From a virus, in IMG/VR virus record IMGVR_UViG_3300028596_000067, positions 1 through 22,752 of that record: DNA of 22,752 nt, one strand, 5' to 3'. The position numbers were made by a program, and so were the translations under genes. The notes below the pieces were generated by a model. That model searched no databases. It saw only the letters and a list, made by a program, of their open reading frames with translations, and was not told the origin of the DNA. Shown piece by piece: positions 2,707 through 17,775 of this stretch (position 1 is its first letter; the number at the start of each line of letters is the position of its first letter).

Positions 2707-3131
2707 CAGTCTGTTTCCTTACGGTTGTCACGATGTATTCGGATTCCGAGGAACTGAACCGCAGGTGGAGAGACCAGATACTCCGCGGCCTTGAGAAGGA
2801 CTTCGGGCTTGTCCCGAGCTGCTGTCAGGAGCCTGCCGTTACACATCCGGCAGAGAAGGCCCCGAACAATCCCTGTCTTGTGGTCGTGGTCCACGGAGAG
2901 CCTCTGTCTCCGAGTTCCTCCGCAGATAGCGCACTTCCCGCCCTGCGCCTCAAACAGCCGGTCGTACTCGCCGGCTTCAAGTCCGTAGGTGTCCTGGACT
3001 CGGAACTCATGGGACGCCTTGGAGCGTCCCTTCTTCCGACAGTCCGCACAGAGCTTGCCTCGTGGTGTGAAGAACCTGAGAGCCCTGTTCTTTGAACACC
3101 TCGTGCACCTGCGGGTCTTAGAACCTGACAT
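2706..3131 (-). CDS. Endonuclease VII-type HNH nuclease
   Basis: A 141-aa protein of the recombination endonuclease VII (Endo VII) family, which cuts branched DNA such as junctions in T4. N-terminal C9xxC12 and C28xxC31 form a probable extra zinc site. The core carries GGKCAICGG (C67, C70), LSVDHDHKTG (the DH...H active-site loop), and GLLCRMCNG (C94, C97, N98), the structural zinc and catalytic Asn arrangement of the family. The role in this phage could be resolving replication or recombination intermediates before packaging. The ATG at 3131 is formed partly by an exact operator motif (3130-3142), which also lies over the end of the upstream gene. Confidence 0.85.
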   Translation of the reverse strand: MSGSKTRRCTRCSKNRALRFFTPRGKLCADCRKKGRSKASHEFRVQDTYGLEAGEYDRLFEAQGGKCAICGGTRRQRLSVDHDHKTGIVRGLLCRMCNGRLLTAARDKPEVLLKAAEYLVSPPAVQFLGIRIHRDNRKETD

Positions 3132-7002: not shown

Positions 7003-7512
7003 TCACGCTGACTCTTTCTGTGGCTCTGGTGGTAGATCCAGAGCCCTCTTGAACCGTTCATTTGGGAAGGGTAGGTCCGCGGGCCAATCGATAACTCGCA
7101 TCCCATCTGCTGGTGTCCGAGGTCGGTAGAACCACCCCTCTCGGGTGCTGGGGTCGTAGCAGAGGACCGTGTCCCGTCGTCGGAGGTTCCTCTCCCACTG
7201 ATCAGCTAGCTTGTTCTGCGCAGGACTGAGCTTGTCGTCTCCGAGTCGGCGTCGGAGCCACACCCTCAGGGCCCTGGCTGAGTGGCGTGAGTGGTGGCTC
7301 TCCGCGGTTGGGACCGTGAAGACCGTCCACCGGGCGGCCAATCCTTCCGCCACCAGGTCTACGATCTCCTGCCTGCGGAGCCCGAGTTTGACCCTGCGCT
7401 TGCTCACGGCCTGCGGCGTAATTCCGTATTCCTTCGCAATCTCCCTGTCTGTCCGACTTAGGTGGAACAGCTTCACCAAGGTCGCATCAGTCAGTTCCGA
7501 TTCCCAGGGCAT
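7003..7512 (-). CDS. helix-turn-helix DNA-binding protein, probable immunity repressor
   Basis: A 169-aa basic protein. Residues about 20-42 (RTDREIAKEYGITPQAVSKR) are a clear helix-turn-helix. The rest resembles, as I recall it, the repressors of L5-like mycobacteriophages: an HSRHSARALRVWLRRRLG segment, then a C-terminal region with YDPSTREGWFYRPRTP and DGMRVIDWP. Those proteins bind short asymmetric sites as monomers. Here the same kind of site (13 bases, asymmetric) is scattered through both arms. The gene is the first of the leftward arm, with degenerate copies of the site upstream at 7613-7625 and 7708-7720, which would allow autoregulation. AAGGA lies about six bases before the ATG. 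A general transcription regulator is the alternative. Confidence 0.68.
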   Translation of the reverse strand: MPWESELTDATLVKLFHLSRTDREIAKEYGITPQAVSKRRVKLGLRRQEIVDLVAEGLAARWTVFTVPTAESHHSRHSARALRVWLRRRLGDDKLSPAQNKLADQWERNLRRRDTVLCYDPSTREGWFYRPRTPADGMRVIDWPADLPFPNERFKRALDLPPEPQKESA

Positions 7513-7872: not shown

Positions 7873-7945
7873 CTAGGCTGTCACAAACCTTGGTCAAGTG
7901 ACACCGACGTCTATAGTAGAAGATAAAAGATAAAAAGCCCTTAGA

Positions 7946-7971
7946 AACCAAGCTCCTTGAAGAGCTTGGTT
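7946..7971. repeat. hairpin 1 of four with similar loops
   Basis: A perfect 10-base-pair stem (AACCAAGCTC / GAGCTTGGTT) with loop CTTGAA. The CTC-loop-GAG closing is shared with hairpins 2 and 3. The right arm runs into the -35 box of the rightward promoter at 7970. Confidence 0.75.
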
Positions 7972-7999
7972 GACAAGAGTTGCAAGGGCATGCTAGACT
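7969..7999 (+). promoter_or_regulatory. strong rightward promoter with operator variant
   Basis: -35 TTGACA (7970-7975, consensus), 18-base spacer, -10 TAGACT (7994-7999). The -35 lies within GTTGACAAGAGTT (7969-7981), 11 of 13 matching the operator and in the right-pointing orientation. The transcript should start near 8006. It would contain hairpins 2-4 and either end at the terminator-like hairpin at 8135-8160 or continue into the late genes. Confidence 0.7.
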
Positions 8000-8005
8000 G
8001 ATATT

Positions 8006-8168
8006 AAGAGGTAAAGAACAGAGGGACTCCTAAAGAGTCCCGATAAGTTAAATACCTAGTAAGTGAGTCTCCTTAAAGAGACTCACCTAAACATGACTAA
8101 GTTTCCTTCTTGTTGATCTCCCTGTTGATTAGGTAGCCAAGGCCCTTAAAAGCCTTGGCTTATTGTTT
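8006..8168 (+). ncRNA. candidate small RNA or leader with three similar hairpins
   Basis: The segment between the predicted start of the rightward promoter and the U-rich run after hairpin 4 is about 160 bases, AT-rich and has no coding frame of note. Hairpin 2 (8023-8041) is a 7-bp stem with loop CTAAA. Hairpin 3 (8063-8086) is a 9-bp stem with loop CTTAAA. Hairpin 4 (8135-8160) is a 9-bp stem with loop CCTTAAAA. Around the loops, CTCCTTAAAGAG and CTCCTAAAGAG include a CTCCTT-like core, the complement of the Shine-Dalgarno AAGGAG. The segment could be a small regulatory RNA acting on ribosome binding sites, an untranslated leader, or a protein-binding array. The ends are predictions. Confidence 0.5.
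8135..8168 (+). terminator. terminator-like hairpin 4, rightward
   Basis: A perfect 9-base-pair stem (AGCCAAGGC / GCCTTGGCT) with an 8-base loop, followed by TATTGTTT. It would end transcripts from the promoter at 7970, giving the short RNA described above. Confidence 0.65.
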
Positions 8169-8176
8169 CCAGGTTA

Positions 8177-8189
8177 GTTGATAAGAGAT
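8177..8189 (+). promoter_or_regulatory. exact 13-base stoperator, rightward
   Basis: GTTGATAAGAGAT, exact and right-pointing, just before the first gene of the right arm. The -10 position 17 bases beyond TTGATA reads AAGGGC, so this is not a promoter. It fits a stoperator placed to block transcription entering the late genes. Confidence 0.7.
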
Positions 8190-8203
8190 CCATGAAGGCG
8201 AAG

Positions 8204-8238
8204 GGCCCCGGCTGCCAGACCAGAACCCAGCCGGGGCC
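8204..8238 (+). repeat. large perfect hairpin before the HNH gene
   Basis: A 10-base-pair GC-rich inverted repeat (GGCCCCGGCT / AGCCGGGGCC) with a 15-base loop. It is followed by a second, smaller one (CCAGCCA at 8249-8255, TGGCTGG at 8279-8285). There is no U tract. Possible roles are an mRNA leader structure or part of a packaging (cos) region; I cannot choose between them. Confidence 0.5.
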
Positions 8239-8315
8239 AGAGACTTGACCAGCCACCCAGGAAGCTAAGGCTCCTCACTGGCTGGCCCCTACTTCGGTTG
8301 TTGGTGGAGGTGACC

Positions 8316-8633
8316 ATGCCAAGGGCAAAATCGATTTGCTTGGACAAGGGTTGCACCTCCACCACCATCCGGGATGGTCGGTGCCCAAAGCACCAGACCC
8401 GGAGAGCCTGGCAGAACACCTCTGCCAGGAACCTCAGCCGGCCTAGCAACTGGCCCTCCATCAGGGCCCAGGTGTTGGCTCGGGACAAGTTCACTTGCCA
8501 GATGTGCGGAAAGAGATCCGAGCTGGAAGTTGATCACATTGTCCCTGTGGCCAAGGGCGGTTCGTGGGAGCTGGACAACCTGTGGGTCCTCTGCAAGGAG
8601 GACCACAAGGCCAAGTCCAGGAAGTTTGGTTAG
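8316..8633 (+). CDS. HNH endonuclease (terminase-associated type)
   Basis: A 105-aa HNH nuclease. An N-terminal Cys/His set (C8, C13, C23, H26) suggests an extra zinc site. The HNH core has C61xxC64, EVDHIVPVAKGG (D73-H74), LDNLWVLC (N88, C93) and H97. Small HNH proteins of this type flank the terminase genes of many cos phages and assist the large terminase in cutting cos DNA; that is the likely role here. The start is ATG 8316, with GGAGGTGA just upstream; the frame is open a few codons earlier. A 315-base gap without genes separates it from the tRNA. Confidence 0.85.
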   Translation: MPRAKSICLDKGCTSTTIRDGRCPKHQTRRAWQNTSARNLSRPSNWPSIRAQVLARDKFTCQMCGKRSELEVDHIVPVAKGGSWELDNLWVLCKEDHKAKSRKFG

Positions 8634-9132: not shown

Positions 9133-9225
9133 TTGGCCACCGAGGAAGAGATGCGTAGTCCCGATTGGTGTTGGTCTCACGGCTGCCACAGATCCCAATG
9201 CCCAGTACCTCCGGAGGAGCACTAG
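9133..9225 (+). CDS. 30-aa Cys/His-rich peptide
   Basis: A small frame with TTG start preceded by AAAAGGAG six bases upstream. The peptide contains DWCWSHGCHRSQC, with Cys at 13, 18 and 23 and His at 16 and 19, a spacing that could bind one zinc ion. The TAG stop is two bases before the ATG of the Acb2-like gene, and the gene's last codons (GGAGGAG) supply that gene's ribosome binding site, so the two are probably coupled. No family is recognised. It could be a true small protein or a leader whose translation opens the next gene. Confidence 0.55.
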   Translation: MATEEEMRSPDWCWSHGCHRSQCPVPPEEH

Positions 9226-9227
9226 CG

Positions 9228-9446
9228 ATGAGCCCTGAAGACATTGAGCACCGGTTCGCCTTTCACCCTGCCAGCCGGCAGGAGAAGCGAGATGAGCACA
9301 CGTCAGCTCGGCAGAGCTGCCGGCAGCTTGCAGACCATCTGAACGAGCTTCTCCCTGAGGGCCGTGAGAAGGCTCTTGCGGTTACCAAGCTGGAAGAGGT
9401 CATGTTCTGGTCCAACGCTGCGATTGCTCGGAGCGTCGATGACTGA
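9228..9446 (+). CDS. Acb2/Tad1-hairpin-type anti-CBASS protein
   Basis: A 72-aa all-helical protein. The motif LPEGREKAL followed by KLEEVMFWSNAAIAR is the signature of the Acb2 (Tad1-like hairpin) family, small phage proteins that form hexamers and sequester cyclic nucleotides made by CBASS, and in some members also by Thoeris, so that the defence effector is not triggered. The family is normally this short, so it appears complete. The frame is open further upstream (to 9165), but the ATG at 9228 has GGAGGAG upstream and fits the family's usual N-terminus (MSPEDIEHRFAFHP). It lies in the late operon next to the NlpC/P60-like gene, with which its end overlaps. Confidence 0.82.
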   Translation: MSPEDIEHRFAFHPASRQEKRDEHTSARQSCRQLADHLNELLPEGREKALAVTKLEEVMFWSNAAIARSVDD

Positions 9447-11191: not shown

Positions 11192-12835
11192 GTGATTGCC
11201 ATTCAGACTGGCAACGCTCCTAGTGAAGCTCCCAAGCGCACATTGGCTTGGGAGCTTCTTGCTTGGGCACAGCGATTCATTGTGCAGCCGGACGGAGAAC
11301 GCGCCGGCCACCCCTGGAAGTTCACTCCAGAGCAGATTAGGTTCCTAGCCCACTGGTTCGCGGTTGATGACCGCGGTAAGTGGGTTTACTCCACAGGCTC
11401 TCTCCGTCGCAGCAAAGGATGGGGGAAGAGCCCTGTTCTTGCAGCCCTCTGCATCATTGAGTTCATCGGTCCTTGCCGGTTCTCTCATTGGGCTCGACAG
11501 GGTGAGCGGTGCTACTCCTGTGAAGTGGAGGGCAGGGGCCCTCACCACGTTGGTAACGAGCTGCATCCCATTGGTAAGCGTGTTCCGCTTCCCTTGGTGA
11601 ACTTGGCAGCCACGTCTATTGATCAGACGAAAAACGTGTACGACGCCATCCGCGGCATGCTTGCTGAGTCCCCCGCAGAGCGGGAATTTGACCTGGACAT
11701 CGGTAAGACCCTGGTTCAGTTCAAGTCTGGCAGGCCCGGAAAGATTGAACCTGTCACGGCCTCGTCCCGAGGATTGGAAGGCGCCAGGCAGACCTTTGTT
11801 TGCCTTGACGAATCACACCACCTTGTCCCCAATAACCAGGGTGTATACGTCTACGAGGTGTTGGACCGCAACGTCCGCAAAACCGCGGGTGCCGGCTCTC
11901 GTCTCCTGGAGAGTACGAACGCCTTCTCCCCCAACGAAGCATCTGTAGCCCAGGGAACCTTTGATGCCTTCGAGGCTGGTACTCCTGGCCTCCTGTACGA
12001 CTGCGTAGAAGCCTCCAATCCTGAGATAGACCTCAAGGACACTGAGGCTGTCCGAGAGGCTGTCATAGAGGCTTACGCGGATTCCTACTGGGTTGATGTG
12101 GACAGCATCATCCAAGCTATCCAGGACCCTCGTACTCCTAAGAACGTGGCTCACCGGTTCTACCTGAACCAGATTGCGGAGTCCGCAGACACTTGGATGC
12201 CAAAGGATGAATGGGATCTGGTCCTCTCTGGAGAGGACCCCATCAAGCCTGGTGACCAAATAGCCATCGGCTTTGACGGATCAATCCGCGGTGACGCAAC
12301 GGGCCTTGTTGGTTGCCGACTCAGTGATGGCAAGCTCTTTGTGATCGACGTCTGGGAGCGTCCCAAGGACGCTAAGGATGATTGGGAAGTAGACACTCTC
12401 GCGGTTGAAGCCGCGGTCTACAAGGCATTCAAAGAGTACCAAGTCGAGTGGTTCTACGGGGACCCTCCCTACTTCCAAGAGGCTCTTGGTAGGTGGGCGA
12501 TTCAGTTCGCCACCAGGGATACCGAGTACGTCTTTGAGTTCTGGACCAATAAGCCAACCAGGATGGTTCAGGCAACGGAGCGCTTCCGCTCCGCGGTGAT
12601 GACCAAGGAAATCTGCCACGACGGAGACGAGCGTCTTACTCGTCATGTCCTCAATGCCGTGACTCGTGAAGTCACAGTAGGAGGAGAAGTCGGAATTCTC
12701 ATTCAGAAGGACAGCCCACGGAGTAAACGGAAGATTGACCTTGCGGTGTGCGCAATTCTCGCCCTGGAGGCGAGAGCGGACGCCATTGCTGATGGTCGCA
12801 TGAAGCGCCGGCGGAGCCGGGTGGTGGGCTTCTAG
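11192..12835 (+). CDS. terL: terminase large subunit
   Basis: A protein of about 547 aa that powers DNA packaging and cuts the concatemer. The ATPase domain has Walker A-like RRSKGWGKS (about residues 72-80) and Walker B TFVCLDES (202-207). The RNase H-like nuclease has IGFDGSIRGDATGL (first catalytic Asp about 362), YGDPPYF and, near the end, KIDLAVCAILALEA. GTG 11192 is preferred because GAAGGA lies five bases upstream; an ATG two codons earlier has no spacing for a site. A Cys/His cluster (C95, C107, C110, HH118-119) sits just after Walker A, an unusual feature. Confidence 0.9.
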   Translation: MIAIQTGNAPSEAPKRTLAWELLAWAQRFIVQPDGERAGHPWKFTPEQIRFLAHWFAVDDRGKWVYSTGSLRRSKGWGKSPVLAALCIIEFIGPCRFSHWARQGERCYSCEVEGRGPHHVGNELHPIGKRVPLPLVNLAATSIDQTKNVYDAIRGMLAESPAEREFDLDIGKTLVQFKSGRPGKIEPVTASSRGLEGARQTFVCLDESHHLVPNNQGVYVYEVLDRNVRKTAGAGSRLLESTNAFSPNEASVAQGTFDAFEAGTPGLLYDCVEASNPEIDLKDTEAVREAVIEAYADSYWVDVDSIIQAIQDPRTPKNVAHRFYLNQIAESADTWMPKDEWDLVLSGEDPIKPGDQIAIGFDGSIRGDATGLVGCRLSDGKLFVIDVWERPKDAKDDWEVDTLAVEAAVYKAFKEYQVEWFYGDPPYFQEALGRWAIQFATRDTEYVFEFWTNKPTRMVQATERFRSAVMTKEICHDGDERLTRHVLNAVTREVTVGGEVGILIQKDSPRSKRKIDLAVCAILALEARADAIADGRMKRRRSRVVGF

Positions 12836-14952: not shown

Positions 14953-14978
14953 AGCCCTCCCCTCCGGAGGGCTTTTTT
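14953..14978 (+). terminator. intrinsic terminator just before the capsid gene
   Basis: Perfect 8-bp stem (AGCCCTCC / GGAGGGCT) with a 5-base loop and six T (sharing one base with the stem). Only 22 bases separate the U tract from the capsid ATG, too few for a separate promoter. The tract is followed by CATGCC and GGAGG. Confidence 0.85.
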
Positions 14979-17750: not shown

Positions 17751-17775
17751 AACGGCCCTTGAGGGGCCGTTTTTT
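17751..17775 (+). terminator. intrinsic terminator just before the major tail gene
   Basis: A perfect 8-bp stem (AACGGCCC / GGGCCGTT) with loop TTGAG, followed by a U run to 17775. The ATG of the major tail gene is 20 bases further on, after GTTGCC and AAGGAG. Confidence 0.85.

Follow-up and report, generated by a model that had tools for sequence, protein, structure and literature searches.

A conserved, structured leader RNA at the start of the HNH-terminase-head operon of temperate Streptomyces phages

Genomic context of the leader region

The window (the whole 22,752-nucleotide stretch of virus record IMGVR_UViG_3300028596_000067 that was analysed) comes from an Ibantik-like, temperate phage of Streptomyces, with Streptomyces phage Ibantik as the nearest named relative. 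The region described here is located between a leftward repressor gene and a rightward operon in which an HNH endonuclease gene is followed by a tRNA gene, the terminase gene, and the head genes (Table 1). It comprises the predicted repressor-controlled promoter and the leader of that operon and thus opens the packaging/structural operon of the phage. The repressor shares 61% identity with Ibantik gp55 ('immunity repressor'). Intrinsic terminators are present within the operon at 14953–14973 and 17751–17771; the latter (+ strand) lies 5′ of the major tail gene and is conserved in relatives. Between the divergent units, a box with the sequence TGACACCGACGTCTATAGTAGAA (7899–7921) is still discernible in the distant phages L033, L038, L102, and L160 and is perhaps the leftward promoter.

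A preliminary description of this DNA had reported four hairpins with stems of 10, 7, 9, and 9 bp, and their coordinates, stem lengths, and loops (CTTGAA, CTAAA, CTTAAA, and CCTTAAAA) proved to be exact. The conserved structure at 8105–8239 is longer and extends past the coordinates given there.

Table 1. Features of the leader region and flanking genes, in window coordinates
Feature	Position	Strand	Description
Repressor gene	7003–7512	−	L5/R4-type repressor-stoperator kind; divergent from leader; phrog_3929 (E 1.8e-9), phrog_357 transcriptional repressor
Hairpin 1	7946–7971		Perfect 10-bp inverted repeat, loop CTTGAA; abuts −35 box, 5′ of transcription start
Predicted operator	7969–7981	+	GTTGACAAGAGTT, variant of the phage's stoperator; overlaps −35 box
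Sigma-70-type promoter	7970–7999	+	TTGACA-N18-TAGACT; −35 box 7970–7975, TAGACT 7994–7999; start expected at ~8006
Hairpin 2	8023–8041		Perfect 7-bp stem, loop CTAAA
Hairpin 3	8063–8086		Perfect 9-bp stem, loop CTTAAA; counterpart in every relative
Structured leader RNA element (P1, P2, P3, P4)	8105–8239	+	Conserved; match of model R1
P1, 5′ strand	8105–8120	+	CCTTCTTG-TT-GATCTC; partner 8185–8198; wobble changes in three columns
P2, 5′ strand, and UU bulge	8121–8126	+	CCTG (partner CAGG, 8170–8173), then conserved UU bulge ahead of P3
Hairpin 4	8135–8160	+	9-bp stem, loop CCTTAAAA; inserted at P3 tip; resembles intrinsic terminator
Predicted stoperator	8177–8189	+	GTTGATAAGAGAT; in leader, between hairpin 4 and P1 3′ strand
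P1, 3′ strand	8185–8198	+	GAGATC-CATGAAGG; partner 8105–8120
P4	8204–8238	+	G+C-rich 11-bp stem, near-invariant 13-base loop CCAGACCAGAACC
HNH endonuclease gene	8316–8633	+	First gene of operon; PF01844 (E 1.6e-12), phrog_144 (E 7e-27)

Promoter, operator, and stoperators

The near-consensus promoter named in the preliminary description is present and is kept in 13 close relatives (the window counted), in which the spacer is 17–18 bases long and its sequence drifts. The predicted operator over its −35 box has two mismatches relative to the window's own stoperator set. In relatives, the same position is occupied by GTTGACACGAGAY, though their other stoperators differ. The second predicted site, in the leader, follows the phage: in L027, L028, and L030, its sequence tracks the own stoperator set of each phage. 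The commonest 12-mer of the window is GTTGATAAGAGA, and the commonest 13-mers of Ibantik are GTTGWCACGAGAC; both sets consist of asymmetric sites that are oriented with transcription. Sites resembling GTTGATAAGAGAT are found in the window at 3130, 3441, 5482, 5561, 6903, 7613, and 7708 on the − strand and at 7969, 8177, 9786, and 18392 on the + strand. Their orientation agrees with the direction of transcription genome-wide, the variants differ from relative to relative, and six more relatives contain 12–20 such predicted sites apiece. Because stoperator-type sites lie both over the −35 box (7969) and in the leader (8177–8189), the promoter is, judging from its sequence, very probably a repressor-controlled lytic promoter. 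The repeated GTTGA motifs of the element were also considered as stoperators and were rejected, as their sequence does not track the phage-specific sets.

Repressor-stoperator immunity with asymmetric, transcription-oriented sites has been described for Cluster A mycobacteriophages and Streptomyces phage R4 (PMC6550527, PMC9283540, PMC10276819). The window resembles these systems in its repressor gene and in its asymmetric 13-base sites that are oriented with transcription, one of them on the −35 box. As in L5/R4-type operators, the site at 7969–7981 that lies over the promoter appears to belong to the phage's own set. However, this likeness covers the regulatory setting and not the RNA, and the sites in the window are predicted ones.

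A conserved structured RNA element in the leader

The element is ~90–135 bases long and is composed of helices P1 and P2, a UU bulge, helix P3, and a separate G+C-rich stem-loop, P4. In relatives of the window, a nearly invariant stretch, GTTTCCTTCTTGTTGATCTCCCTGTTGA, follows hairpin 3, and its partner sequence is located beyond hairpin 4; the consensus of the 3′ strand of P1 is GAGATC-CAWGAAGG. In non-window phages, P1 is formed by UCUCCUG/CAGGAGA, P2 by CUG/CAG, CUCG/CGAG, or CGG/CCG, and the same UU bulge leads into a short hairpin, P3 (GAGC/GCUC). The near-invariant unpaired bases are the UU bulge, UUGA, and the P4 loop (CCAGA.CAG.A.C). In the predicted structure, hairpin 4 thus extends the tip of P3 within a larger structured RNA, as an insertion that is found in the window's group.

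A family model (R1) that was trained on 18 non-window sequences, with no window-type sequence used, recovered positions 8105–8239 of the window (+ strand, 55.8 bits, E 6.7e-9) together with 12 close relatives. Covariation in the element is strong. In 45 loci, which give 44 distinct rows, 95.7% of the cells are paired and 22 of the 25 pairs change on both sides, with such changes in every helix (6/6, 8/8, and 8/11 pairs), as counted in a structure-fitted alignment. The covariation score is 0.378, whereas shuffles score 0.165 and slid partners no more than 0.107. MAFFT alignments also show P1 and P4, and one of them shows P2 and P3 as well. In a model-free alignment of the close family, P1–P3 contain 19 G-U and 0 A-C cells, which indicates that the RNA of the + strand is what is kept.

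Phage records that were scanned over their full length contain one copy of the element each. The P4 pattern matched 36 stretches in viral contigs, and in those inspected the start of an HNH protein with the same N-terminus is located downstream. Among 247 Streptomyces genomes, model R1 matched seven. Judged by their context, five or six of these matches appear genuine; on inspection, the one in L166 seems to be a chance match, and the one in L163 is ambiguous. In 198 genomes of the same class, the model gave no match beyond the Streptomyces reference. A scan of the window with Rfam 15 returned nothing at the gathering score except a tRNA, and a relaxed threshold (E up to 5) applied to 7900–8330 gave chance-level matches only. 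None of the Rfam 15 families fits the element or shares a feature with it, and two surveys of bacterial structured RNAs name no HNH motif. On the comparisons above, the element is a single-copy, covarying leader RNA without a match in the Rfam library, kept at the operon start in phages and prophages of Streptomyces and close kin, with no fewer than 44 distinct loci. It marks the first gene of the HNH operon and could aid the annotation of Streptomyces prophages.

Hairpin 4 and the short leader transcript

Hairpin 4 had been described as terminator-like. In eight of the 13 close relatives, a clean U-tract follows the stem, whereas in the other five the tract is interrupted or missing; these include the window, with the U-rich but interrupted tail TTATTGTT. 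Hairpin 4 may serve as an intrinsic terminator, and the conserved promoter and the clean U-tracts in relatives make the previously suggested RNA of ~160 bases plausible. Since the U-tract is imperfect in 5/13 and phages outside the window's group have no hairpin 4, the terminator is no part of the element's general design. Hairpin 4 and P1–P3 are compatible rather than mutually exclusive, so the two do not form a classical terminator/antiterminator switch.

The ~160-base RNA had been proposed to act in trans by pairing with ribosome-binding sites through CTCCTT. Such an RNA would be delimited by the promoter and, in relatives, by the terminator, and termination at hairpin 4 would leave part of the C/U-rich strand 8105–8123 exposed. 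However, that strand is accounted for by covarying pairing with 8170–8198, and most element-bearing phages have no terminator at this place. Moreover, CTCCTT is not conserved in the hairpins, and its CTC is base-paired where present (unpaired probability ≤0.01). With CTC buried in the stem and CTCCTT not kept, an anti-Shine-Dalgarno small RNA is improbable.

An array of Watson-Crick inverted repeats

Among the 13 relatives (the window counted), one to three hairpins of the type of hairpins 1–3 are located between the promoter and the element, usually with one more before the promoter. The one before the promoter, hairpin 1 in the window, lies 5′ of the start site and therefore cannot belong to the promoter-started RNA. 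Its site is occupied in most relatives by a near-perfect inverted repeat with other arms, and no clean counterpart was found in L023, L030, and L031. The region from 7946 to 8168 is the densest in stems of all 223-base stretches of the 22.7-kb window, and when it was shuffled 2000 times with its dinucleotide composition kept, a single shuffle reached four stems of 7 bp or longer (shuffle mean 0.12). In 31 array hairpins, the arms vary and the centres stay near CTTRAA (CTTAAA in nine, CTTGAA in five). This bears out the earlier view that the loops are conserved beyond stem formation: in relatives, they stay alike and the stems change. From these alignments, hairpins 1–3 form an array that is specific to the lineage, with inverted repeats that are strictly Watson-Crick and centred on CTTRAA. 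As the arms differ, the CTTRAA-like centres persist, and the stems are strictly Watson-Crick, the array is real and is selected or renewed; it may act at the level of RNA or of DNA.

Action at the DNA level would mean that the hairpins are not RNA signals but cruciforms, protein-binding dyads, or repeats perfected by template switching. This is somewhat unlikely as an account of the hairpins, and it may apply to hairpins 1–3 even with an RNA element downstream. In its favour, G-U pairs occupy 0 of 280 stem cells in the 31 array hairpins versus 19 of 273 in P1–P3 (Fisher P 1e-6), the centres are near-palindromic (CTCYTTRAAGAG), and hairpin 1 is located outside the transcript. However, strong terminator-like stems avoid G-U pairs too, and the detection rule favours perfect stems; it missed two marginal wobbles (L029 and L031), and with these included P is 6e-5. 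Kissing between identical loops was considered and is not general, as the CTTGAA loops lack self-complementarity on inspection. Three pattern matches in viral contigs (L012, L015, and L017) are unrelated A+T-rich DNA. In Thermobifida phage P318 (L103, 1120–1460), the HNH gene is preceded by some five hairpins whose loops resemble UUAA or UUCA; model R1 has no match in this phage despite the hairpin array.

Possible role of the leader RNA in late transcription

The reading that we favour, tentatively and at a little under an even chance, is that the P1–P4 leader RNA acts in cis and controls RNA polymerase on the late operon by attenuation or antitermination. The sigma-70-type promoter, with the repressor operator on its −35 box, would start a leader RNA that contains the perfect hairpins 2 and 3 followed by the folded P1–P4 element. 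Many transcripts would end at hairpin 4 by default. Once P1–P4 is complete, the polymerase, alone or with a factor, would read through the internal terminators of the long operon. The leader RNA would in this way probably help to time transcription of the packaging/head operon. A cis role on transcription is favoured because of the leader position, the single copy, the terminators inside the operon, and a tRNA gene that intervenes between the element and HNH in five loci (L116, L127, L160, L161, and L164). Most phages outside the window's group lack a recognisable sigma-70 promoter in the 260 bases that precede the element.

The HNH gene was found 3′ of the element in the loci inspected, and no element without an HNH gene was seen, so an HNH-linked role is possible. 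The element would then be a 5′ untranslated control site at which the HNH protein or the ribosome binds P1–P4 and sets HNH translation, and its end mostly lies 17–29 bases before the HNH start codon. We regard this as unlikely. As HNH is the first gene of the operon, any leader of that operon would be linked to it. Moreover, the tRNA gene splits the element from HNH in at least five loci; action during transcription fits better, since excision of the tRNA would sever the element from the HNH message. Neighbouring tRNA genes also imply that the transcript is cut anyway, and very stable stems are located close to its 5′ end, which would suit a processing or stability structure in which the hairpins and P1–P4 shield the 5′ end of the late mRNA or take part in its maturation. 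Stability alone, however, does not explain the near-invariance of the unpaired bases in the UU bulge, UUGA, and the P4 loop, and such a role is rather unlikely.

The preliminary description had also raised the possibility of a packaging site. A packaging end is ruled out for the sequenced relatives Ibantik, Ponzi, and Success: their homologous genome ends lie elsewhere and the element is mid-genome. That P1–P4 could also work as an RNA partner of the adjoining HNH/terminase machinery, either in packaging or as a guide of the HNH nuclease, is highly improbable.

Resemblance to known phage systems

The put RNAs of phage HK022 (putL and putR) consist of two adjacent stem-loops, the first of them bulged, in the nascent leader near a phage promoter (PMC9378689). 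RNAs of the put type suppress terminators farther along the operon by contacting the zinc-binding domain of RNA polymerase. The element is alike in its two adjacent stem-loops (the first bulged), its place in the leader of a long operon, and its distance of ~100–270 bases from the promoter, so the put arrangement of two stem-loops in a nascent phage-operon leader is also found in the structure modelled here. However, the element precedes the late operon and put the early operons, one copy is present here compared with two in HK022, and the host phylum and the sequence are different; the likeness is one of structure and position.

In the window's group, the order of promoter, short RNA, terminator-like hairpin, and late operon is similar to the pR′-tR′ region of phage lambda, in which the short leader RNA is the 6S RNA. 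In lambda, the late promoter pR′ is followed by a short leader RNA and the terminator tR′ and is part of the Q system (PMC6606751). Unlike pR′, the promoter in the window bears a predicted repressor operator, and a covarying RNA structure surrounds the terminator, which is missing in many relatives and has an interrupted U-tract in the window (clean in 8/13). No Q homologue or QBE was identified, and no Q-type protein was seen among the ten proteins scanned. Both put and pR′-tR′ are best regarded as resemblances and not as evidence of membership.

How the late operons of temperate phages of actinobacteria are switched on and escape termination is poorly known, and the element is a concrete, easily tested candidate for their control. 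An action on RNA polymerase would make it an RNA-based control of elongation outside lambdoid phages.

The window contains further features of note. The protein encoded at 9165–9446 (+) is small and has the hairpin domain of Acb2/Tad1 (PF24729, E 2.1e-19); members of this family are sponges for cyclic nucleotides that counter host defence. A perfect 13-bp hairpin is located at 11225–11258 (+) within the start of the large terminase gene, and Ibantik keeps a 10-bp version of it at 28575–28602.
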